Shown: positions 1,583-13,051 of the stretch, one piece after another
How positions within the stretch are numbered: position 1 is the first letter of the stretch
Layout: every line of letters starts with the position of its first letter
IMG/VR virus record: IMGVR_UViG_3300021425_002565
Coordinates: 1 to 21,829 of that record
DNA: 21,829 bases
Strand: one strand, 5' to 3'
Origin: a virus
Made by a program: the position numbers and the translations under genes
The notes under the pieces: model-generated
Seen by the model: only the letters and a program-made list of their open reading frames with translations
Told to the model about the DNA's origin: nothing
Databases searched by the model: none

Positions 1583-1611
1583 ATTATATAGTAAATATTA
1601 AATTCTGTCAA
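1583..1611 (-). promoter_or_regulatory. Perfect consensus sigma70 promoter of the hli group
   Basis: Minus strand TTGACA (1606-1611), a 17-nt spacer and TATAAT (1583-1588): both hexamers and the spacing match the bacterial consensus. The stop codon TGA of the upstream glycosyltransferase gene is contained within TTGACA, so the promoter starts exactly where the glycan block ends. The first transcribed bases include a TTGTAAA/TTTACAA inverted repeat. Confidence 0.88.
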
Positions 1612-2402
1612 GATTTCATTTGTGTGGGTTCAGTAACTCTTCCCAAATAAGGATCATAATTTACAAGATCAGCAAGAGTTGTTTTGGATCCAGAAGTTTC
1701 CCAATAATTCCATTGAGACTTATAGTTTTGTTTATGAAATACATCAACATGATCTGGATGAATACTTGATCCCAATTCAGTTCTATAGAGCAATAGTGGA
1801 ATAGCATAGGTATTCCCAGCATTATATAACAAATCATCTGCGACTGGACGTGGTTTTACTCCATTATCTAATTTGTACTTATCAGGACCTTTAACATGAA
1901 ACTTCACAAGCTTCTCTGCATAGTGACGATTCATAATATAACATGCTGTGGAAAAGTCATTTACAAAACGTTTATGGAGTCTAACATGTATATCACCAGT
2001 ACAAATGATAGAAATTTGAACACAATCCCAATCATAAGGAAGACGAGAATAAAAATCTCTCCATGCAAAAGGCCAAAACCTTACAAGATCTAGGCTACAA
2101 TCATCCTCCATGAATACTGCATATGGAGAATCAGATGTATCCAACCAATGCTTAATTGCCTTTAAATGAGAAGTTGTGCATCCTATTTCACTAGGAGTCA
2201 TTTTTTCTGGATAACGACCCTTAAGTATATCACTTAGATCGTCTTCCCTACCATCATAAGCAGAGATACGAGTATAGTTTTCAATCTCCCAGTACTTAAA
2301 CTGGTTTTCCATATACTCTTTTCTTTCTGGTTGTCCATCAAGATTAAGATAATAGACTGGTCCAAACCCTTGCAATTTAAATGCTGACTTATTCTTATCC
2401 AT
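1608..2402 (-). CDS. Glycosyltransferase family 25-like (LPS-type)
   Basis: A 264-aa GT-A-fold sugar transferase resembling family 25 enzymes that add galactose or other sugars in lipopolysaccharide or to protein. The N-terminal block YYLNLDGQPERK (17-28), the EIGCTTSHL block (72-80) and the metal/nucleotide-sugar motif FMEDD (97-101) are in the family's order and spacing. The ATG at 2402 overlaps the end of the fucosyltransferase-like gene by 8 bp. It is the last gene of the glycan block. The acceptor cannot be told from sequence. Confidence 0.82.
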   Translation of the reverse strand: MDKNKSAFKLQGFGPVYYLNLDGQPERKEYMENQFKYWEIENYTRISAYDGREDDLSDILKGRYPEKMTPSEIGCTTSHLKAIKHWLDTSDSPYAVFMEDDCSLDLVRFWPFAWRDFYSRLPYDWDCVQISIICTGDIHVRLHKRFVNDFSTACYIMNRHYAEKLVKFHVKGPDKYKLDNGVKPRPVADDLLYNAGNTYAIPLLLYRTELGSSIHPDHVDVFHKQNYKSQWNYWETSGSKTTLADLVNYDPYLGRVTEPTQMKS

Positions 2403-3186
2403 AAATCTTTTGTAATAGTAAAGACGTCTTCAAAAATGAACTAGGTGAATTTACCATAATATTTGTTTTAGAAAGTATTGTCAAGTCAATTAATGCATCC
2501 ATTACACTCTCTTGAGTCCTTTCAATATTTTCACACCATCCAAGATTTTCATTTTGTCTTTGAACATAATGTTCTTTTCTACGAATAATTACATTCTCAA
2601 GTTTATTAAATTTCTTTTCTATACTTGGATCATCCGACAATACAAAAAACTTTTGTTCTGATTGTTCAGAAATCCATTTATATTCTTTATCAAATTTGGG
2701 AATATAAGTATTAAAATCAGTTGCTCTTAAATGGACTCCAATAGTAAATGCATTTATCGAATGCCGTTTAGCAAACATTTCAGAAAAATTTCTAATATTA
2801 TCAATAAATTTTAGTTCTCTTCCAGTATCAATATATTGGGTTTCATCCATCCACTGAGGAATCCAATTATTATTATAAAGATATTCCCCACAATCAGATA
2901 ATGGAAGACTATTAATATCTTCAAAAGAATTGATATTATAATTCTTCTTTCCGACAATAAAATCTTCATGCATCATTAAAATGCAATTAGAAAATTCAGT
3001 TAATGGTTTATCAATTACATCTATTTTATTAGAAAAAATCTTATCAAATGGTAATCGACAAGAAGAAGTATTTCTCCAATTAATAATTGGTGTCATGTTA
3101 TGATATTTTGCAACAGTCAGTCCACCGAGCAAAGTTCCGTATCGATTACCAAAACCACCATCACAATAGATGTAAAGAATTCTCAT
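2395..3186 (-). CDS. Fucosyltransferase-like protein (GT-B, HxRxxD type)
   Basis: A 263-aa protein. An N-terminal glycine-rich segment with a GNR motif (GGFGNRYG, 10-17), the central motif VHLRATD (151-157), then FVLSDD (181-186) and a C-terminal DLTILSKT....NSPSSF region match the layout of GDP-fucose-dependent transferases (the NodZ / O-fucosyltransferase / GT11 superfamily), in which the HxR motif binds GDP-fucose. The exact family is uncertain and it is clearly different from the GT11 enzyme at 9447-10235. Its start overlaps the upstream methyltransferase stop by 4 nt (ATGA). With Gmd in the same block, GDP-fucose or a related GDP-deoxyhexose is the likely donor. Confidence 0.62.
   Translation of the reverse strand: MRILYIYCDGGFGNRYGTLLGGLTVAKYHNMTPIINWRNTSSCRLPFDKIFSNKIDVIDKPLTEFSNCILMMHEDFIVGKKNYNINSFEDINSLPLSDCGEYLYNNNWIPQWMDETQYIDTGRELKFIDNIRNFSEMFAKRHSINAFTIGVHLRATDFNTYIPKFDKEYKWISEQSEQKFFVLSDDPSIEKKFNKLENVIIRRKEHYVQRQNENLGWCENIERTQESVMDALIDLTILSKTNIMVNSPSSFLKTSLLLQKIYG
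2456..2484 (-). promoter_or_regulatory. Candidate internal promoter inside the fucosyltransferase-like gene
   Basis: Minus strand TTGACA (2479-2484), a 17-nt spacer and TATTAT (2456-2461). It lies in the last 30 codons of the gene and about 50 nt before the GT25 gene. The match is as good as that of the other promoters, but the bases also encode protein, so chance is possible. Confidence 0.45.
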
Positions 3187-3770
3187 ACTACAACTACCAA
3201 TCTATCATCAGACTTTTTACCAAGATCACATTCTACCATATGAACTTCTCTATCGGGATAAATTCCTAAAATAAAATCTTTAAGATCATTGGCATTTTCC
3301 GCAGTCTGAACATCTTCACAAATATAAATTCCACCATCATTTAGATATGGGAAATAATTTTCAAAATTTTTCATCTGTTGAGTAAGTTGATGATTAGCAT
3401 CATCAATAATAATATCAAACCCCAAATCTTGCAAATGACCCTCAATTAAAGTTGGATTTTCACAATCAAAATTGAATAGAGTAATTCTCTCATGACTATT
3501 AACATCTTCCATTACAGCATCACCATCTACTGGTTCAAACTGATAATGCCATTGTCCATCTGGTTGAGAAAAATCTTCTACACCATATATGTGGGAATTT
3601 TCAAAGTAGTGCTCCCACATTTTGAGTGATCCACCAAACAAAACACCAATCTCAAGAACGTTTAGTTTTTCGGTTCTACGATCAGAAAAAGTACTTTCAT
3701 ACCAAGGAACATAACCATGAGCAGTTCCTTTATCAGTCTTAAATTTTGTATGAATATCAGTTAGCTTCAT
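3183..3770 (-). CDS. Class I SAM-dependent methyltransferase
   Basis: About 195 aa from the ATG at 3770; a longer frame starts at a TTG (3776), but the ATG is preferred. The SAM-binding motif I is VLEIGVLFGGSLKMW, with an acidic-strand segment YGVEDF after it. Motif FDIIIDDANHQ is characteristic of sugar and macrolide O-methyltransferases of the TylF/MycF-like type, where the Asp-Asp pair and His bind metal or act in catalysis. It overlaps the flanking genes by 14 and 4 nt and sits among sugar transferases. O-methylation of a sugar is the best guess; the substrate is unknown. Confidence 0.75.
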   Translation of the reverse strand: MKLTDIHTKFKTDKGTAHGYVPWYESTFSDRRTEKLNVLEIGVLFGGSLKMWEHYFENSHIYGVEDFSQPDGQWHYQFEPVDGDAVMEDVNSHERITLFNFDCENPTLIEGHLQDLGFDIIIDDANHQLTQQMKNFENYFPYLNDGGIYICEDVQTAENANDLKDFILGIYPDREVHMVECDLGKKSDDRLVVVV

Positions 3771-4557
3771 ATTCAAGTCTCCATTGATCGTAAGTTTTTT
3801 CGTCTAAGTATTTACCAATATCAAAATCAGTATTAGTTTTATTATTTACTGACATAACTCTCTTTTCAAAGTTTACCACAGGATTGTCTTTTGTAGATCC
3901 ATTACTCTTAAAATGGACAGAAAGAGTATTATCTGTCAATTCTTGATCGGCACAAACCTGAAGTTCTGGAAGATAACCAATCTTTGCTTCAGTATTTTCC
4001 TGTAAGGTCAAATTAAGTGCAGGAGTTTCATGTGGAAATGGTGTCCCATTAACAGCAAATTCTTCCATCTTGGCAATCCAATTTTTAACAAATTTTTTAC
4101 CAAGACTATGATTATTAATGATTAAAAAGCTTGCAATTTCACTAATAAAAATACCATCAGCACGAGTGTGTCCACCAGTATTCATAGTAGTTACTTGAAT
4201 ATCATAGTTTGTATCAATAACTTCTGATAGATCTTTTAAAACACATACATCACTATCAATCATAATTAATGGATGTTCAAAAGAAATATTATACAAAAGT
4301 TTTTTAAGCATCCTAGTTTTTTGTTGGGTTGCCTTTACCCATCCTTCAGAATGAACACCAGAATATTCATCGGCAATATTTGTATCAAGAATTGATACCT
4401 TTTGTTTATTCTTTAGTTTGTTTCGATATTCACCCAATCCACATTCTGCAATGTATATTCGATCAAGATTTTTACAATTTTCAATTGCAGAACTACTTAA
4501 AACATCAACAAAAGGATAATAAGACTTATTTGCAGTGGTAAAAATGCTATATTCCAT
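3757..4557 (-). CDS. Glycosyltransferase, GT-A fold (GT8-like)
   Basis: 266 aa from the ATG at 4557, which starts 2 nt after the TGA of the upstream gene; a TTG nine bases earlier would add three residues. The N-terminal YSIFTTAN..Y strand/loop and the DxD-type motif MIDSDVCVLKDL (99-110), preceded by a KTRMLKKLL helix, resemble family 8 and other nucleotide-diphospho-sugar transferases. DSD would hold the metal and sugar nucleotide. Family assignment is approximate. It lies between two methyltransferase genes, which fits assembly of a methylated glycan. Confidence 0.68.
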   Translation of the reverse strand: MEYSIFTTANKSYYPFVDVLSSSAIENCKNLDRIYIAECGLGEYRNKLKNKQKVSILDTNIADEYSGVHSEGWVKATQQKTRMLKKLLYNISFEHPLIMIDSDVCVLKDLSEVIDTNYDIQVTTMNTGGHTRADGIFISEIASFLIINNHSLGKKFVKNWIAKMEEFAVNGTPFPHETPALNLTLQENTEAKIGYLPELQVCADQELTDNTLSVHFKSNGSTKDNPVVNFEKRVMSVNNKTNTDFDIGKYLDEKTYDQWRLEYEAN

Positions 4558-4559
4558 AA

Positions 4560-5105
4560 TCAACAATAAGCAACAATAACATCATTTTCAACATGACCAT
4601 CCTCATATGCAATAAAATATGATTTATTGATGGCAGTAATTTGCTCATAGATTGCACTCTCATCAATCGTGTTACCCCATGTACTTGCTTTATCACCAAA
4701 GAGTCTACGATCATCAATTAAAAGTGTATGTGTTTTAAACTGACTCTTAGAAATTATATCAAGTTCAAATGGTAATGGACATTTATATTCACCTATAGGT
4801 GCTCCATCATTATCCCAATGTGCATCCAACCAAAATGTTGCAGATCCTTCTAAATTAGTAACGATATCTTCAAACACGTCAAAAGTATCACCTTCGATAA
4901 GTTCAACCCTTCCTTCTTCAATTTCTTTAGCAAATCTCTCACTATTTGCTACAACACGTTCAGGATCAATTTCAATACTAATAACTTTTTTAAATCCACA
5001 CTCAAGGGCAACTGCTACACCATCACCCCATAATGTTCCCGTTTCTATAAAAATATCATTCTTCTTATGCTTTAGAAGAACTTCTTTAGATAATGTTGAA
5101 GACAT
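4560..5105 (-). CDS. SAM-dependent methyltransferase-like protein
   Basis: 181 aa from the ATG at 5105, which overlaps the TGA of the amidotransferase gene (TGATG). Motif I appears as IFIETGTLWGDGVAVAL, followed by the acidic strand end ISIEIDPERV. FWLDAHWDNDGAP with a downstream CPLPFELDII is the second conserved block of a methyltransferase group common in viral and bacterial glycan clusters. It is short and lacks extra domains. The substrate is unknown, and no close similarity to the other methyltransferase at 3183-3770 is apparent, so the two likely modify different positions. Confidence 0.68.
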   Translation of the reverse strand: MSSTLSKEVLLKHKKNDIFIETGTLWGDGVAVALECGFKKVISIEIDPERVVANSERFAKEIEEGRVELIEGDTFDVFEDIVTNLEGSATFWLDAHWDNDGAPIGEYKCPLPFELDIISKSQFKTHTLLIDDRRLFGDKASTWGNTIDESAIYEQITAINKSYFIAYEDGHVENDVIVAYC

Positions 5106-6430
5106 CAAAAACCTCTCTTAATATTTTTTTCAAATGGATAGTTTGATCTAGTCAGGTACTCATCAAGCACAGACTTATACTTTGAATTTTTTAACGTATG
5201 AGTCAGTGACAAGAATTCTTGTACCACATATTTATCAAGATAGGGATAACGTGTTTCTATGCCATAAGATCCAGCAACATACTCTTCCTTTGCCAGATAT
5301 GAAACCATAGTGCTTCCGTAGAATGATGCCCATGGAAAAATAGTTGCTAGATCTTCAGGAAATAGTCCACCAAAATTACTATGGGCAAACTTCTTTTCAC
5401 CACCAAACCCATAGTCAGAAAAGATTTCATCAGATCCAGAACCAGAAAGATAAATCTTATGACCATCTTTGCGAGCATTATCACAAATCATTGAAAGACC
5501 ACAAGAACCATTATCATCCTGCAATCTACGATCAAATTCATTGTAGTTACTACTAGAAGAGTAAATACGATACTTAAATTCTTCTACATTTTTATTAATA
5601 TAATCTCTATATTCCCAACGTTTATCTTGCAAATATTCTCCACAAGAATTGGTATTAAACATTTCAAATCTTTTCTTGAGAATATCTTGATTCTCATTGC
5701 CAATCACTGAATATGCCTTATAGGGAATATTTTGCTTATTTAACTCACAAGCAATTCCACCACTATCATATCCACTAGAAAGTCCAATGAATACTTTCTC
5801 ACGAATATTATTGGTTCGTTTAATTATAGAGTTCTCAAATGCTTTAATCCATCCATCAAAGGAATCATTAAATTGATTTAGAACAAACTCATAAGTTGCA
5901 ATCTTATTAATAAATTTCTTAGTCTCCAGATTAAAAGTAATGATTGTATTAGCATCTTGCTTTATTACTTTTTTAAATCCAAGAGATTTAACTGCAGATT
6001 CATAACTAGCGACACCAATCTTATCACCCTCAATCGCATACCATAGGGGTTTTGTGGCAAAAGGATCAGTTACTAAATGCAGAAGGTTGTTTTTGAAATC
6101 TGCGAGAACGATTGCATATTCACCATCAAGTGCTACAAATCCACGTTCACCAAATTTTTTATATGTTGGGATAATACATTCTCCATCAGATTTATAATCA
6201 CCAAAATCATTGTAATTATAGACCTGTCCATTGTACACACAAACGATTTCATCGTCATTATCTACAAATGGTTGTAAGGTAAAATCTCCAGTGATAGATA
6301 AAATATTGTGAGCAATAGTATACTCATTAACTTGAATACTGTTTGTGGAATCTGGTCCACGAAACTTCATATAATGATTTGTATAATCAAAATCATTAAC
6401 TACTTTATTTGTAAAAAGAAAACTACACAT
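5105..6430 (-). CDS. Asparagine synthetase-like glutamine amidotransferase
   Basis: 441 aa with the two-domain AsnB layout. The class II glutaminase domain has catalytic Cys2 (needs Met removal), RGPD (24-27), NGQVYNY (67-73) and SDGE (81-84). The synthetase domain has an ATP-pyrophosphatase loop, SSGYDS (218-223), a slight variant of SGGxDS, then SGSGSDEIF and ETRYPYLDKYVV, matching SGEGADELF and E.R.PFLD in AsnB. It would take ammonia from glutamine and amidate an adenylated carboxylate. At 441 aa it is shorter than AsnB (about 550). Inside a sugar cluster with a sugar dehydrogenase, conversion of a uronic acid to a uronamide is a plausible alternative to asparagine synthesis. Its start overlaps the upstream TAA by one base. 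Confidence 0.85.
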   Translation of the reverse strand: MCSFLFTNKVVNDFDYTNHYMKFRGPDSTNSIQVNEYTIAHNILSITGDFTLQPFVDNDDEIVCVYNGQVYNYNDFGDYKSDGECIIPTYKKFGERGFVALDGEYAIVLADFKNNLLHLVTDPFATKPLWYAIEGDKIGVASYESAVKSLGFKKVIKQDANTIITFNLETKKFINKIATYEFVLNQFNDSFDGWIKAFENSIIKRTNNIREKVFIGLSSGYDSGGIACELNKQNIPYKAYSVIGNENQDILKKRFEMFNTNSCGEYLQDKRWEYRDYINKNVEEFKYRIYSSSSNYNEFDRRLQDDNGSCGLSMICDNARKDGHKIYLSGSGSDEIFSDYGFGGEKKFAHSNFGGLFPEDLATIFPWASFYGSTMVSYLAKEEYVAGSYGIETRYPYLDKYVVQEFLSLTHTLKNSKYKSVLDEYLTRSNYPFEKNIKRGF

Positions 6431-7113
6431 TAACCCCGTCTACTATGATGAGAATTCACTACTTGTGGCATAAACTTATTTCCACGGATTGTATTAGCTC
6501 TGCCAGGAATAATACTTGGTTTAATTCCAAGTTGATAACAAACAAAAGGAAAACTAATTTGGTCTCTTGAGGAGAACATGCATATTTGCTCCCACCACAT
6601 CAAACCAAGTTGTTGGGTTCTTTTGTTATTTCTTTGAATTCTAACAGGTAACTCATACAAACCATTATGCTCAGGATACTGCATATCCCTATAAAAGTCA
6701 AGTTGATCATCTATTAAATTAGGATAATCAAATCCAATACTCTTTACAAGATTTCCTTCCTCATAAACACAATCTCTTTCTGGATGCTTAAATACTGCAA
6801 TATCAGATGATTTTAAATATTCGTCAATTATTTTTTCAGGATCTTCCTCAAGAATATGAGTAGAATCTAACCAAATATAATAATCAAATCCAGGTAAAAC
6901 TAAATGTGGAAGAACTTTATATAATTTTGCTTCTCTTCTATTTCTATACTTTAAATCATTAGAAAAACTAGTATATTCATGTCTATTCCATAAATCAGCA
7001 ACATGAACCTCTTGTGGTTCAACAAAGGCATGAAACTCAGCCTTATGCATCCATTTCTCTGGACTGATTAATTTGTTTGTTCCGATTGATGATGTTAATA
7101 CTGCAATTTTCAT
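6430..7113 (-). CDS. TOD1/MUCI70-type (DUF616) glycosyltransferase-like protein
   Basis: 227 aa. The block RREAKLYKVLPHLVLPGFDYYIWLDS (60-84) and then FKHPERDCVYEE (108-119), followed by a C-terminal WWEQICMFSSRDQISFPFV, matches the TOD1/MUCI70 glycosyltransferase-like family, previously DUF616, best studied in plant pectin and mucilage formation and also found in bacteria. WLDS would be the DxD-equivalent. It starts 2 nt after the upstream TAA. Catalysis has not been shown for most family members, so donor and acceptor are open. Confidence 0.75.
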   Translation of the reverse strand: MKIAVLTSSIGTNKLISPEKWMHKAEFHAFVEPQEVHVADLWNRHEYTSFSNDLKYRNRREAKLYKVLPHLVLPGFDYYIWLDSTHILEEDPEKIIDEYLKSSDIAVFKHPERDCVYEEGNLVKSIGFDYPNLIDDQLDFYRDMQYPEHNGLYELPVRIQRNNKRTQQLGLMWWEQICMFSSRDQISFPFVCYQLGIKPSIIPGRANTIRGNKFMPQVVNSHHSRRG

Positions 7114-7115
7114 TA

Positions 7116-7883
7116 TTAAGAATTGCGATGCTTTTGATTTAGTTCACGCATAAATTTGATTAGTGGACTTTGACTAAACTTTTCAAGTTCATAATTATCT
7201 TTGTCAAGACAGTGACTGCTCCATCCAAATTTACCATCACTACCAGGAACTTGAGAATGTGATCGGCCGATTCTATCATCAAGTCCTACCATTTCAGCAA
7301 ATTCTTCATAAGTAGACTCGCATCCCTGCTGCTTATGAGCAAGATACATTTCATTAAAGAAAGTTACTCTCAAAGCAAGAAATGCATTCTCTGAATATTT
7401 TACCATAGCAGCAGTTCGAATATCAGTAACTCGAATAGTTTTAACAAACTCTAAACGATCTGAAAAAATGTCGGCAACTTTATTTGCTGCATCAGTATCT
7501 CCACCAATGATAAAGAACTTTTGTTCTTGAAACATCTTAATTGGATTTGTTTTATTAAGATATTCTGGACTATGAAGAATCCTAATGTTCGAATACTTTG
7601 TCGCAACGTCATAATAAAATTGAGGAGATGCTGTTGATTTACAACAAACGGGTGTTCCCTCAAGCATGTTTTCGTTGAGAGTATTTAATACAGAATCTAA
7701 TAGAGCAAAACCCTCAGCTTTAGGTGTATCTACAGAAACAAATACTGCATCAAACTCTTGATTCTTATAGTCTTCAATCCTATTATTATTAAACTTAGGA
7801 TCAATAATTACCTTCTCATCATCGTTAAAAATAGATGCTACAGCAGATCCTACAAAACCAAATCCAACAATTAATACTTTCAT
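7116..7883 (-). CDS. UDP-glucose/GDP-mannose dehydrogenase-like protein, C-terminally short
   Basis: 255 aa. The Rossmann NAD site is GFGFVG (7-12). Next come HSPEYL (Glu107), KYSENAFLALRVTFFNE (Lys162, Asn166) and the catalytic thiol motif HCLDKD (Cys225, Asp229), equivalent to GG.C.PKD. All residues for the two-step oxidation of a sugar nucleotide to a uronic acid are therefore present. It stops soon after this motif and lacks the usual C-terminal UDP-sugar-binding domain (family about 390-450 aa). That suggests an unusual substrate mode or a partner protein. The gene abuts its neighbour exactly (TGA then ATG). Confidence 0.85.
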   Translation of the reverse strand: MKVLIVGFGFVGSAVASIFNDDEKVIIDPKFNNNRIEDYKNQEFDAVFVSVDTPKAEGFALLDSVLNTLNENMLEGTPVCCKSTASPQFYYDVATKYSNIRILHSPEYLNKTNPIKMFQEQKFFIIGGDTDAANKVADIFSDRLEFVKTIRVTDIRTAAMVKYSENAFLALRVTFFNEMYLAHKQQGCESTYEEFAEMVGLDDRIGRSHSQVPGSDGKFGWSSHCLDKDNYELEKFSQSPLIKFMRELNQKHRNS

Positions 7884-8711
7884 TCAATCACTCCCAATAC
7901 GTTTCAAATAATACTTTTGATTTCTAATATATTTACCAAGTTCCTCAGAGGACATTTTTTGAATTTTTTCCCACTCAGCATTATTCCCTTTCATATGTGG
8001 ATTGTTTACCCATGAGTTAGGAGTTCTTGCATGTTCTAAATGGTATACCCAATCAGGAACTCTGCCAACTTTATACCCAAGAGTTTTAAATCTATGATAT
8101 CTTTCCACATCTTCAGGAGCATATGCAACAAAGTTTTCGTTCTCCATTCCACCTTCAATGTAAACATCTCTATTAAAGAACTGACAGAACCCATACTTAG
8201 ACATATAGACCTTTGATTTTTTTCTTAAAAGATTAAAATCAAAATCATTTGTCAAGAAATCACTTACCAATTCATCATCAGCAAATACTTGATACTGCCA
8301 GTTTCCATCACCATAAGGATATATTACATCAGCATGTCCATTGTTAATGATATCATAAGAATGCTTATATGTCTCCTTGGGTAAAAGAATATCACAATCA
8401 TAATTGACAACTACTTTAGTAGTTGATCTCATAATCATATCATTCAGAACTCTCTGACGATGGAATGATGGTGAGTTTGATTGTTCAAAAATGTGATCGA
8501 GACCTTCTACCCTACCATCAAGAAACTCTGTAATCTGTGGCAGAGCACTTTCCGCAAACACAGACTCAGAATCAACTTCATGAACAATTACATTTGTTTT
8601 AAAGTTTGCAAGGATGTAACACAAACTTGTAATTACATTTCTCAATCTATCATCAGATTCTAATCTGATTGGGACAATAAAAGTTGCATTAGATAAATCA
8701 ATCTTTTTCAT
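7884..8711 (-). CDS. Glycosyltransferase, GT-A fold with galactosyltransferase-like C-terminus
   Basis: 275 aa from the ATG at 8711, one base after the upstream TAA; a TTG at 8753 would extend it by 14 residues into the upstream gene and is less likely. The N-terminal ATFIVPIR strand is typical of family 2 enzymes. The DxD motif is YDCDILLP (104-111). A GGMENENF...PEDVERYHR segment in the last third resembles the C-terminal galactosyltransferase region (Glu-Asp pair near the active site). A WVYHLEH motif follows. The product linkage cannot be told. Confidence 0.78.
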   Translation of the reverse strand: MKKIDLSNATFIVPIRLESDDRLRNVITSLCYILANFKTNVIVHEVDSESVFAESALPQITEFLDGRVEGLDHIFEQSNSPSFHRQRVLNDMIMRSTTKVVVNYDCDILLPKETYKHSYDIINNGHADVIYPYGDGNWQYQVFADDELVSDFLTNDFDFNLLRKKSKVYMSKYGFCQFFNRDVYIEGGMENENFVAYAPEDVERYHRFKTLGYKVGRVPDWVYHLEHARTPNSWVNNPHMKGNNAEWEKIQKMSSEELGKYIRNQKYYLKRIGSD

Positions 8712-8712
8712 T

Positions 8713-9450
8713 TTAGTATGTGTTGTTTTTATTTTTCTCCAGAACGTAATCAAGTTCTTCCTTATTTACAATCCAAGATCCTTCAGGGTGATCAAACCTA
8801 TAATTGTAATCAACATTGGAAGAACTAATTCTATTGGGATGTTCACGATTAGCAATTAGATAGTCTTGGATCAATCCAGGAGATCCATTCTCGCAACGCA
8901 TACGATGATAGAAATCGGTATCCATCAATAGTTTTAATTTTGAATCAAATCTAACAAATTTATCCGTCCTAAAAGAAACACAAGAAGGAGAACCAAGAAG
9001 ATTTCTACCCTCCAACATCATATCAGTCCTACGAGGAACCATTGGTCTTACAAAATTTTTCCCGTCAGAAGTATGTTTAAATCCATTAAATAACCAATTA
9101 CAATCAGTAGAATCAAATGTCCTCACAATTAATTCAAAAGCATTTTCATTGATGAATAGGTCATCAGAAAAAATTAACTTAGTATACTGACCAGAACACA
9201 TCTCAACTGCTGAGTTTGTATTTGCTGGTCCATTGCCACGATTCTCTTCATTTTTAAAGTACTGAATGGTAAAGTCCTGTGAATACTCTTCACATACTTC
9301 TAGTATAGAATCATCTTTAGAGTGGTCCGAAATACAAACCTCAAAGTTTTTAAAAGTCTGCCTTTCAATACTAGTAAAAAGTTCTCTAAGATAGTCAGGA
9401 CCAACTCCACCCATTTCATATGTGGGAATGGCAATCGATAAATCAATCAT
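8713..9450 (-). CDS. Family 2 glycosyltransferase
   Basis: 245 aa from the ATG at 9450, which forms an ATGA overlap with the upstream stop; an ATG at 9462 would add four residues. The start LSIAIPTYE is the classic GT2 first strand. SDHSKDDS (41-48) corresponds to the first conserved Asp of the nucleotide site and KLIFSDD (91-97) to the DxD metal site. It also has the GT2 feature ENRGNGPANTN before the DxD. GT2 enzymes invert stereochemistry and use UDP- or GDP-sugars. It sits between the GT11 fucosyltransferase and another GT-A enzyme. Confidence 0.85.
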   Translation of the reverse strand: MIDLSIAIPTYEMGGVGPDYLRELFTSIERQTFKNFEVCISDHSKDDSILEVCEEYSQDFTIQYFKNEENRGNGPANTNSAVEMCSGQYTKLIFSDDLFINENAFELIVRTFDSTDCNWLFNGFKHTSDGKNFVRPMVPRRTDMMLEGRNLLGSPSCVSFRTDKFVRFDSKLKLLMDTDFYHRMRCENGSPGLIQDYLIANREHPNRISSSNVDYNYRFDHPEGSWIVNKEELDYVLEKNKNNTY

Positions 9451-10235
9451 AGTTTTACCCATCTCTCAGGAATAATATCACGAGTATCATTCTTAGAAGT
9501 ATATCCACCATCACCAAACCATTGAGAAGGTGCAATTACAGTTCCTCGATTTGCTAACCAAGCACCCCACCATGAGAAAGAAGAGTTAGCAATAATGAAA
9601 TCATTGCACATAGAAATTAGGCACATATCATAACGATTATCATTACCCTCAGCAATCATAAAACGATCAGATTCAAAAAGTTCTTGCTGCTTACACCACT
9701 CGGGATCATCAGAGAATACAATTACATCACGATCTTCATCAAACTTTGATAGTGCCTCTTGATAATATTCAAGGCTACAAGGTGGATGATCATTTGCCTT
9801 AGAAACATAATCTGTCCTACGAACATGAAGTGCAATAGGATTGTTTACTTGTTCAATAAAACCTTGGCAGGTCTCTACAATAAAATCTTTAAACTCAAAG
9901 TCTTCACGAATACTATCTGCAATATGTTCAAAGTATTTTTCAGTTTGAAAGTATCCAAACAAACAAACTTGATCTGGACAATTATCTACATATGTCTGAT
10001 CATAATGAAACTGCTTCTCTTGATAATATTGTGGATTTAATTGATATCCACGATTTTTATTATGGGGAAGTTTAAAAGTTTCAAATAATTGATGATCCTT
10101 CCATTCATCCTCAAAGTTAGATTGAGGAATAGCAAAATCATATCCATGCTTCTCTGCAATTCCTCTCAATGCCGCATATTGAAACATTTGATTTCCAAGT
10201 CTACCATGTTGCCCAAGATGATTAAAACCGATCAT
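9447..10235 (-). CDS. Alpha-1,2-fucosyltransferase family protein (GT11)
   Basis: 262 aa with all family 11 blocks in order: GRLGNQMFQYA (11-21), HVRRTDYV (137-144, Arg contacts GDP-fucose), VFSDDPEW (173-180), and the C-terminal NSSFSWWGAWL (217-227). Length is slightly under FutC-type enzymes (about 290). It would transfer fucose from GDP-fucose in alpha-1,2 linkage onto a galactose-like acceptor; the strong motif conservation suggests a working enzyme. It shares a 4-nt ATGA overlap with its upstream neighbour. GDP-mannose 4,6-dehydratase in the same block supplies the route to the donor. Confidence 0.92.
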   Translation of the reverse strand: MIGFNHLGQHGRLGNQMFQYAALRGIAEKHGYDFAIPQSNFEDEWKDHQLFETFKLPHNKNRGYQLNPQYYQEKQFHYDQTYVDNCPDQVCLFGYFQTEKYFEHIADSIREDFEFKDFIVETCQGFIEQVNNPIALHVRRTDYVSKANDHPPCSLEYYQEALSKFDEDRDVIVFSDDPEWCKQQELFESDRFMIAEGNDNRYDMCLISMCNDFIIANSSFSWWGAWLANRGTVIAPSQWFGDGGYTSKNDTRDIIPERWVKL

Positions 10236-11101
10236 AAGAATTTCAAAATAGTATTTACTCTATTAATAAAGGTGTGATTTTCTTTTACAAATAACATTGC
10301 TTCTCTGATATTAATTTCTTCATTCATGTCAGCATGTAAAAGATTTTGGTATAAAGTATCTGGTGTTCCACCAAATGCTACATAATCACCAAATGCTCTT
10401 TTTACAAAAGGTGAATTAGTTCCAGTAATTCTACCATAACTAATATTTTTAAATATTCTACATGGAATATATCCACATTGCAAGTGGTGATCACTCCTAA
10501 AATCTGGACATAAGAATGATGTCCTAACCATTTCAAAGTTTTCTTCAAATGAAGCATTTTGAGTAAAAACTTTGAATTCTACACTATTCTTTTGATATAA
10601 GATATTTGCAAAATTCTGTGCCCACCATGGACCTTGCTCATAAAGCATTCCAATATAATTTAATGACTTATTTGATAAACTAAATTTTGCTGGATTATTT
10701 TCATCAATTTCATGAGGAAGAAGATCAGTTCCCCATGTCTGATAAAGAGTCCTTGTTGATTTATCCCAGTAAGCAAGATCTTCTACTTTCTCATAAATCT
10801 CCAAACTAGGAAGATAATTTCCAAGTTTTAAAATATTTTCATAAGGTATACCAGCATTAGTGAAATACTTTGTATCAATATGATGAGTAATATACTTACA
10901 ATCTTTTCTTAAAGGCATTCCATTCTTTACAAAATTTTCTGTAAAGAAAATAGAATTACTGAAATCATATTGATTCAAATCATCTCTCGAATCAATCCAG
11001 TAAACTTCATGACCAAGATACTCAAATGCTTTAAAATAAGAAGCATGAATATAACTATGAGTGTGTTCGTGAAGTTTATGTCCCCAAATATAAATTTTCA
11101 T
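10232..11101 (-). CDS. Glycosyltransferase-like protein, probable GT-B fold
   Basis: 289 aa. The N-terminus MKIYIWGHKLHEHTHSYIHA with AFEYLGHEVYWID looks like the first Rossmann domain of GT-B enzymes, with the usual (F/L)..LGHEV strand. The C-terminal GYIPCRIFKNISYGRITGTNS segment resembles the donor-binding region in which P.R.FE..A.G is conserved. No DxD is needed in this fold. No family can be given. It overlaps both neighbours by 4 nt and belongs to the glycan block by position. Confidence 0.6.
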   Translation of the reverse strand: MKIYIWGHKLHEHTHSYIHASYFKAFEYLGHEVYWIDSRDDLNQYDFSNSIFFTENFVKNGMPLRKDCKYITHHIDTKYFTNAGIPYENILKLGNYLPSLEIYEKVEDLAYWDKSTRTLYQTWGTDLLPHEIDENNPAKFSLSNKSLNYIGMLYEQGPWWAQNFANILYQKNSVEFKVFTQNASFEENFEMVRTSFLCPDFRSDHHLQCGYIPCRIFKNISYGRITGTNSPFVKRAFGDYVAFGGTPDTLYQNLLHADMNEEINIREAMLFVKENHTFINRVNTILKFL

Positions 11102-11949
11102 GATAACATCCTCAATTGTGGATTAGATGCCTTACGTCCAATATCAAGAATAGATAGAATCTGCCCTTCTTCTTCTAGAATTAGTTCATCTACTTTATTC
11201 CAATCTTCAGTATACTTAATTATTTTGCCATCCCCAAATGCCCTATCACTTCTCTTTGCAGTAGGAGAAACACCAACCCAAAAATGATTATCTACATGGG
11301 AAAATCCACGAACCCATCCACCAAGTTTTTTTACAAATCCACCAGTAGACCTTACACATCCTTCTTTAGAACTTAGAGTATAAATTTCTCCATTATACTT
11401 CCAAAGATCATGACATTGAATTCCCATATTACTATAAATTTGACTCACTGGTTTACCAATATCATCAAACTCAAGAATATAACTTCCATTATCCCAATTG
11501 TGGGCAAGTATATACAATTTATCTTCGGTGGCATAAATTGTATTTAAATGATGACTATCTCTGTAAGAACAATTTTTTCTTGGAGGAATTGGTTGCCAAC
11601 GATCCCAAGTTTCCCCATCATAAATTCCAATGTAATCACCATAGCTAGATGTACAAAGAAGTTTTCCTCTCCAGAATCCAATACCATGAAGATCTTGAAG
11701 TTTAAATTCTTCTGGTTGAATAATTGCTTCTGCTCTTAGCTTATTATCTAAGATAACAATGTCACCATTCTCTTGCTCAGGAGAAATAAAATTATTGGTA
11801 TTAGAGGGATCACTATTCCGACAAGCAACATAATACTTACCAAAATGTTTTGCTAGACCATAATAAAGACCTTTACCACGATCTACTGGAGTAATTACAT
11901 TATCCTCACGGACATACAATATCGACTTTGTAGTTGAAACTAAAAACAT
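11098..11949 (-). CDS. Beta-propeller-like protein of unknown function
   Basis: 283 aa without an enzyme signature that I can recognise. The sequence is made of repeated short-strand units with the pattern hydrophobic strand, DLHGIGFW / SHHLNTIY / CHDLWKYNGEIYTL / FSHVDNHFWVGVS, each followed by a polar turn, which suggests a propeller of about five or six blades. His-Asp-Leu or His-His pairs recur at equivalent places (DLHG, DSHH, CHDL, SHVD). Similar propeller proteins (for example DUF4915-like) occur near glycan genes. It may bind a sugar or scaffold a complex. It is translationally coupled to the GT-B gene by an ATGA overlap. Confidence 0.55.
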   Translation of the reverse strand: MFLVSTTKSILYVREDNVITPVDRGKGLYYGLAKHFGKYYVACRNSDPSNTNNFISPEQENGDIVILDNKLRAEAIIQPEEFKLQDLHGIGFWRGKLLCTSSYGDYIGIYDGETWDRWQPIPPRKNCSYRDSHHLNTIYATEDKLYILAHNWDNGSYILEFDDIGKPVSQIYSNMGIQCHDLWKYNGEIYTLSSKEGCVRSTGGFVKKLGGWVRGFSHVDNHFWVGVSPTAKRSDRAFGDGKIIKYTEDWNKVDELILEEEGQILSILDIGRKASNPQLRMLS

Positions 11950-12030: not shown

Positions 12031-13038
12031 TTATTGTCCATAAATGCACATGTCCTCAATCAATTCATCAAAAGTAATTTCAGGTTCCCATCCAAGTTTT
12101 TCTTTTGCTTTAGTCGAATCTCCAAGTAAAGTTTCGACTTCAGTAGGACGATAATATTTAGGATCTACCGCAATGATTGTCTTTTTGGTATACTTATCCA
12201 TACCAATCTCATCATTACCTTCACCATACCATTCGATATTCATACCAAAATATGGTGCAACTTTCTCAACAAACTGACGAACTGAATATTGTTTACCAGT
12301 AGCAATTACAAAATCATCAGGTTCATCTTGCTGAAGCATTAGCCACATAGCACGAACATAATCCTTTGCATGACCCCAATCTCGTTTTGCATCTAGATTT
12401 CCTAGGTATAGAACCTTTTGCTCTCCAACAGAAATGCGTGATAGACCTCTAGTAATCTTACGAGTTACAAAAGTCTCACCACGACGAGGGGATTCATGAT
12501 TAAATAAGATCCCTGTACAAGCATACATTCCATATGCTTCACGATAATTTTTAGTTATCCAATAAGAATATACCTTTGCACATCCATAAGGAGATCGTGG
12601 GTAAAAGGGTGTAGTCTCAGTCTGAGGAGTCTCTTGAACCAGTCCATACATCTCAGAAGTGGATGCCTGATAGATACGACACTTCTTCTCCATGCCAAGA
12701 ATGCGAACTGCCTCAAGAATACGAAGTGTTCCTAGTCCATCCACATTGCCAGTATACTCAGGCATCTCAAAAGATACCTTTACATGACTTTGTGCTGCAA
12801 GATTATAAATCTCATCAGGTTGAGTTTGCTGAATAATGTGAATAATATTTGCAGAATCTGTTAGATCCCCATAATGCAATTTTAAGTTATTATGGTTGTA
12901 AATATGATCGATTCTAGAAGTATTAATAAGAGATGCTCTCCGAACAATACCATGAACAACATAACCCTTATCTAAAAGCAACTCTGCAAGATAAGATCCA
13001 TCTTGTCCAGTAATACCAGTAATTAATGCAACTTTCAT
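12031..13038 (-). CDS. gmd: GDP-mannose 4,6-dehydratase
   Basis: 335 aa from the ATG at 13038, which has a GAGG Shine-Dalgarno 6 nt upstream and gives the usual family start; another ATG at 13050 adds four residues. The NADP site is [11 protein letters not shown] (7-17). The short-chain dehydrogenase catalytic set is Thr127 and Glu129 in STSEMYG, and Tyr151/Lys155 in PRSPYGCAK. The [14 protein letters not shown] segment (185-198) fits the GDP-mannose and tetramer interface region. It converts GDP-mannose to GDP-4-keto-6-deoxymannose, precursor of GDP-fucose, GDP-rhamnose and others. No fucose synthase (wcaG/fcl) is seen in this window, so the next step must be encoded elsewhere or by the host. 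Confidence 0.95.
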
Positions 13039-13051
13039 TCTATTCCTCATA

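Follow-up and report, generated by a model that had tools for sequence, protein, structure and literature searches.

Does a cyanophage carry its own route to uronamide sugars, in which a nucleotide-sugar 6-dehydrogenase supplies a uronic acid and an AsnB-like amidotransferase turns its carboxylate into an amide? The question is raised by two genes in a virus record of 21.8 kb, the whole of which was analysed and is called the window here. Among annotated records, Synechococcus phage S-SCSM1 (Kyanoviridae) is the closest, with matches at 81% identity that span 67% of the window; the window is a cyanophage fragment related to S-SCSM1. The minus strand carries a glycan cluster that includes a clear GDP-mannose 4,6-dehydratase and, as the preliminary description of this DNA had noted, several glycosyltransferases and methyltransferases (Table 1). 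An alpha-1,2-fucosyltransferase is named for the S-SCSM1 glycan cluster in the paper on that phage. Both reading frames on which the earlier proposal was built are present, and their tight spacing is confirmed: the AsnB-like gene, one glycosyltransferase gene and the dehydrogenase gene form a three-gene block with overlapping or nearly overlapping junctions of the TAATG type.

Table 1. Genes of the glycan cluster in the window, with the basis of each assignment.
Feature	Coordinates	Strand	Basis
GT25 glycosyltransferase	1608..2402	-	Pfam PF01755
NodZ / O-FucT-like fucosyltransferase	2395..3186	-	PF10250 marginal, below cut-off; S-SCSM1 annotation
Methyltransf_24-like methyltransferase	3183..3776	-	phrog_21658; Pfam marginal
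Methyltransferase-like protein, downstream of the AsnB-like gene	4560..5108	-	S-SCSM1 homologue is annotated as a methyltransferase; NCBIfam matches weak
AsnB-like amidotransferase, 441 aa	5105..6430	-	Pfam GATase_7, GATase_6 and Asn_synthase above cut-off
GT116-type (TOD1/MUCI70, PF04765) glycosyltransferase, 227 aa	6430..7113	-	Pfam 67.4 bits, cut-off 21.4
Mini-UGDH, 255 aa, N-terminal and central domains only	7116..7883	-	Pfam PF03721 and PF00984, without PF03720
Glycosyltransferase-like protein	7884..8753	-	Weak Glycos_transf_2; synteny with S-SCSM1
GT2 glycosyltransferase	8713..9462	-	Pfam PF00535
Alpha-1,2-fucosyltransferase-like glycosyltransferase	9447..10235	-	phrog_2644 glycosyltransferase; S-SCSM1 paper
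GDP-mannose 4,6-dehydratase	12031..13050	-	TIGR01472, 578 bits, above cut-off

The AsnB-like protein begins MCSF, which places a Cys at the second residue as in class II glutaminases, and consists of an N-terminal glutaminase domain followed by a shortened ATP-dependent synthetase domain. Its best general model is the asparagine synthetase B equivalog TIGR01536, yet the score of 120.3 bits lies below the cut-off of 267.1. WbpS, an amidotransferase named in the preliminary description, and WbqG have been placed in TIGR03108 (PMC7468200). Against this WbpS-type model (eps_aminotran_1) the phage protein reaches 62.2 bits, with a cut-off of 816.9, and WbpS-type membership is not upheld. What it shares with WbpS and WbqG is the AsnB superfamily, the pairing of a class II glutaminase with an ATP-dependent synthetase, a setting within a glycan cluster and a proposed amidation of a sugar carboxylate; it differs in its length (~440 aa versus 628 model positions), its variant motifs and its GT116 partner gene. 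An AlphaFold model (pLDDT 86.8) finds human ASNS and E. coli AsnB as the best PDB folds, followed by beta-lactam synthetase and the TsnB9 hydroxyamidotransferase. Fold, domain order and the N-terminal Cys are common to the phage protein and E. coli AsnB, whereas identity over the structural alignment is only ~17-20% and the C-terminus is ~100 residues shorter.

An alignment scan of viral contigs matched 149 stretches; 141 proved to be AsnB relatives, and 80 of these were retained. A further scan, of bacterial genomes, contributed five loci. Among 74 distinct full-length sequences used for motif analysis, Cys2 is invariant (74/74), and the positions equivalent to Asn74-Gly75 and Asp98 (E. coli AsnB numbering) are retained. 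The SGGLDS loop, in contrast, mostly reads SSGYDS, the Arg49 position is Leu or Ile in 72 of the 74, and the Glu348 position is Ser, Gln or Met in most. Because the Arg49 and Glu348 positions are changed, both the use of glutamine and the reaction itself may differ. Judged by sequence, the protein belongs to a separate viral and bacterial subfamily that keeps most glutaminase essentials but has altered motifs. We note that the AsnB-like gene is broken into separate reading frames in two contigs (L155:10163-11098 and L156:10163-11098), and that an apparent GT116-AsnB fusion in L132 was set aside as an artefact, its junction codon being ambiguous and reading X. A deazaguanine cluster of Achromobacter phage Motura contains a short AsnB-like gene (L096:4953-6233), flanked by queC and a gene for tRNA-guanine transglycosylase.

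The other gene, described earlier as a nucleotide-sugar 6-dehydrogenase, bears out that assignment in part. The NAD-binding N-terminal domain (PF03721, 36 bits, cut-off 27) and the central domain (PF00984, 45.3 bits, cut-off 25.4) of UDP-glucose dehydrogenases (UGDHs) are present, but PF03720, the UDP-binding domain of the C-terminus, is missing from both the protein and the entire window. We refer to this incomplete enzyme as mini-UGDH. No reading frame just downstream prolongs it, and PF03720 is likewise absent from 24 other virus records (20 IMG/VR records, the complete S-SCSM1 genome and three further), while the same search was positive in 14 of 14 control genomes; a separate C-terminal domain encoded elsewhere in the phages was thus looked for with these searches and not found. 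The viral relatives that we retrieved are nearly all 254-282 aa long, the exception being the L023 dehydrogenase (339-360 aa), which is extended at both ends. Since PF03720 is missing across the virus records and the relatives are nearly all short, their sequences identify the dehydrogenase as a viral family of short enzymes rather than a locally truncated gene. Annotation at the superfamily level masks this domain-reduced nature. Full-length UGDHs also occur in phages, for example in Listeria phage LIS04 (1329 bases).

Structural comparison with UGDH, one of the checks suggested at the outset, agrees with the domain content. The AlphaFold model of mini-UGDH (pLDDT 92.5) has UGDHs as its best solved folds, with TM scores of ~0.8 by query and ~0.45-0.55 by target, and aligns to about half of the full-length structures. 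Residues C225, K228, D229, K162 and N166 are invariant in 29 aligned sequences and align with E. coli Ugd; C225 is the catalytic-type Cys of a C-x-x-K-D motif. E107 and R204, likewise of catalytic type, are invariant too, and the Arg of the DxRIG motif is kept. Mini-UGDH therefore resembles Ugd in its two domains, its catalytic-type Cys, Lys, Asn and Asp and its fold, but differs in lacking the C-terminal NDP-binding domain (255 aa versus ~390-490), in substitution of the Glu of the Ugd LRE motif, and in an extra loop, HxQVPGxDG...HC, which is invariant in the family and absent from E. coli Ugd. Many relatives sit in T4-like replication blocks, and the family is consequently not tied to glycan clusters; in L024:4922-5710, L050:10001-10768 and L057:10001-10789 the gene lies in such replication/transcription blocks with no glycan genes around it. 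The short dehydrogenases at L169:11327-12100 and L175:6398-7177 form another, divergent group, which is without the HxQVPG...HC loop. Second PF00984 matches in the L050, L057, L058, L068 and L091 contigs are weak, mostly to small replication-block proteins, and were taken as chance.

Do the two genes form a pair? They are found together in other viral loci, including the independent contig L162, so the earlier concern that they might never co-occur elsewhere does not apply. As a set two-gene pathway, however, they fail. Of the 68 distinct AsnB relatives whose flanks reach 1.5 kb or more, nine have a mini-UGDH gene within 3 kb and 11 have one anywhere in the locus, whereas 52 have a GT116-type gene in the locus, 40 of them within 100 bp (no GT116 gene was detected near the other 16). 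Mini-UGDH is missing from the locus in 46 of the 52 AsnB relatives with linked GT116. Viewed from 57 distinct GT116 genes, six have both UGDH and AsnB, four UGDH only, 38 AsnB only and nine neither; the UGDH-AsnB association given GT116 is not positive (Fisher odds ratio 0.36, p=0.21), in a set of loci gathered through searches for the AsnB, GT116 and UGDH genes and hence not a random sample. S-SCSM1 has a glycan cluster of identical gene order, with AsnB and GT116 proteins 85% and 78% identical to those of the window, but no PF00984 protein is encoded anywhere in its complete genome of 228,827 bases. These counts rule out a fixed AsnB/UGDH pair: it is the GT116 gene that steadily accompanies AsnB, and the dehydrogenase has the look of an optional extra.

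Wherever this cluster contains a mini-UGDH gene, that gene is immediately upstream of GT116. A quick GT116 tree shows four switches between presence and absence for the dehydrogenase and two for AsnB. The dehydrogenases of the window and L016 are 80% identical, compared with 57% for AsnB and 50% for GT116, and the dehydrogenase therefore seems to have moved independently of the other two genes. In the bacterial AsnB loci a GT116-type gene is nearby in four of five, three of these being weak or partial matches, and mini-UGDH in none. Prochlorococcus AG-347-J19 has AsnB and GT116 together with a full-length dehydrogenase elsewhere in its genome; the AsnB subfamily is rare in its family (3 of 251 genomes at E <= 1e-50).

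The product of the gene between AsnB and mini-UGDH belongs to PF04765 (CAZy GT116), of which the confirmed member RGGAT1/MUCI70 is a galacturonosyltransferase, the one GT116 enzyme with a characterised activity and a plant protein (PMC10576798, PMC11062476, PMC11765706). The phage protein, at 227 aa, scores above the PF04765 cut-off but is distant from RGGAT1/MUCI70 and covers only about half of the profile. Uronic acid transfer is therefore a reasonable prediction, although, with one plant enzyme characterised, the donor assignment is a family-level guess. The GT116/AsnB linkage provides a testable prediction of donor and substrate for the bacterial and viral GT116 group.

A further link to uronic acids comes from L162 (373-4238), an independent and unrelated viral contig with consecutive genes for a mini-UGDH, a UDP-GlcA-4-epimerase-like protein, a glycosyltransferase and an AsnB-like protein. 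Mini-UGDH also adjoins an epimerase gene in cyanophage C48C1. The nearest solved structures of these epimerases include the 6zl6 series and MoeE5, which we take to be UDP-glucuronate 4-epimerases and from which the label derives. Neither the window nor the S-SCSM1 locus yielded a UDP-GlcA epimerase. The slot directly after GT116, held by AsnB in other phages, is occupied in L197:6675-7439, L191:6675-7436 and L193:6675-7169 by a TupA-like ATP-grasp gene, of a family known from teichuronopeptide synthesis. In L169 a TupA-like gene lies beside AsnB and mini-UGDH. A Methyltransf_24 gene follows GT116 in several loci without AsnB (e.g., L018:4462-5040), and of the 15 loci in which GT116 stands alone, 12 have a Methyltransf_24 homologue. 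NeuB homologues are found only in GT116 loci without AsnB and in none of the AsnB loci, and nonulosonic acid was discarded as an AsnB substrate for this reason.

We propose, at a probability of roughly 45%, that the three genes serve as a module for glycan decoration centred on the GT116-type enzyme, which would add a uronic acid residue to a phage-directed glycan. The AsnB-like enzyme, using glutamine (or ammonia) and ATP, would then probably convert a sugar carboxylate to the amide, yielding a uronamide, either at the nucleotide-sugar stage or after assembly of the glycan. Where present, mini-UGDH would boost the supply of nucleotide uronic acid, provided that the two-domain enzyme is active, and phages without it would draw on the host pool. 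The original uronamide route thus changes shape: the non-canonical AsnB, the GT116 neighbour and the L162 gene order agree with it, while the fixed pair, a dehydrogenase with its NDP-sugar domain and closeness to the WbpS model do not stand. Uronamide formation by the phage module is plausible and partly supported by these sequences, and the idea survives mainly through the GT116 linkage and contig L162.

The AsnB-like enzyme might instead act on another carboxylate or linked group of the glycan (an amino acid, a nonulosonic acid or other acid), with the dehydrogenase unrelated. The absence of the dehydrogenase from most AsnB loci fits this, as does the presence of phage AsnB-like proteins in other pathways, such as the Motura setting, but uronic acids are favoured by the steady GT116 linkage and by the order of genes in L162, and the NeuB distribution argues against nonulosonic acid, leaving this reading somewhat doubtful. 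It is unlikely that mini-UGDH is not a nucleotide-sugar dehydrogenase at all but acts on another substrate without the C-terminal domain, its position in the cluster being incidental. The missing PF03720, the family-specific loop with the replaced LRE Glu, and the replication-block relatives without glycan genes would all suit such an enzyme; the invariant UGDH-type Cys, Lys, Asn, Asp and DxRIG Arg, the UGDH folds and the adjoining epimerase-like genes speak for the dehydrogenase.

The chemistry of the AsnB-like enzyme could also depart from the proposed amidation. Like beta-lactam synthetase, it might activate a carboxylate with ATP and form a bond other than a glutamine-derived amide, as the next-best folds and the replaced Arg49 would allow; with Cys2 invariant and the Asn74-Gly75 and Asp98 positions kept, we consider this highly unlikely. 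That it is an ordinary asparagine synthetase, supplying asparagine during infection, can scarcely be right: TIGR01536 as the best general model and asparagine synthetases as the best folds are outweighed by the score below cut-off, the SSGYDS loop, the replaced Arg49 and Glu348, the shortened C-terminus and the location within glycan clusters, and the true asparagine synthetase that would have undone the earlier proposal is not what we find.

The glycan-decoration module may be taken further, to a modular uronamide route of cyanophages in which a minimal two-domain UGDH would make the nucleotide uronic acid, GT116 would transfer it and a new AsnB subfamily would amidate it, the slot after the glycosyltransferase being a carboxyl-capping position filled alternatively by a TupA-like ATP-grasp enzyme or a methyltransferase; as a whole, this extension is quite unlikely. 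If phages do alter surface glycans by means of acidic sugars in amidated form, negative charge would be removed, and recognition by other phages or grazers could change. Superfamily names also conceal two groups that the analysis brings out, an AsnB subfamily of viruses and a family of dehydrogenases with reduced domain content.

Two minor observations concern the rest of the cluster. The protein at 11098-11949 has no confident family match, only a weak one to DUF4915, and is annotated in S-SCSM1 as coatomer subunit alpha. The marginal PF10250 protein (2395-3186) occurs in the window alongside the clear PF04765 protein (6430-7113), a pairing that mirrors, possibly by coincidence, that of GT106 and GT116, the enzyme families of the plant RG-I backbone.
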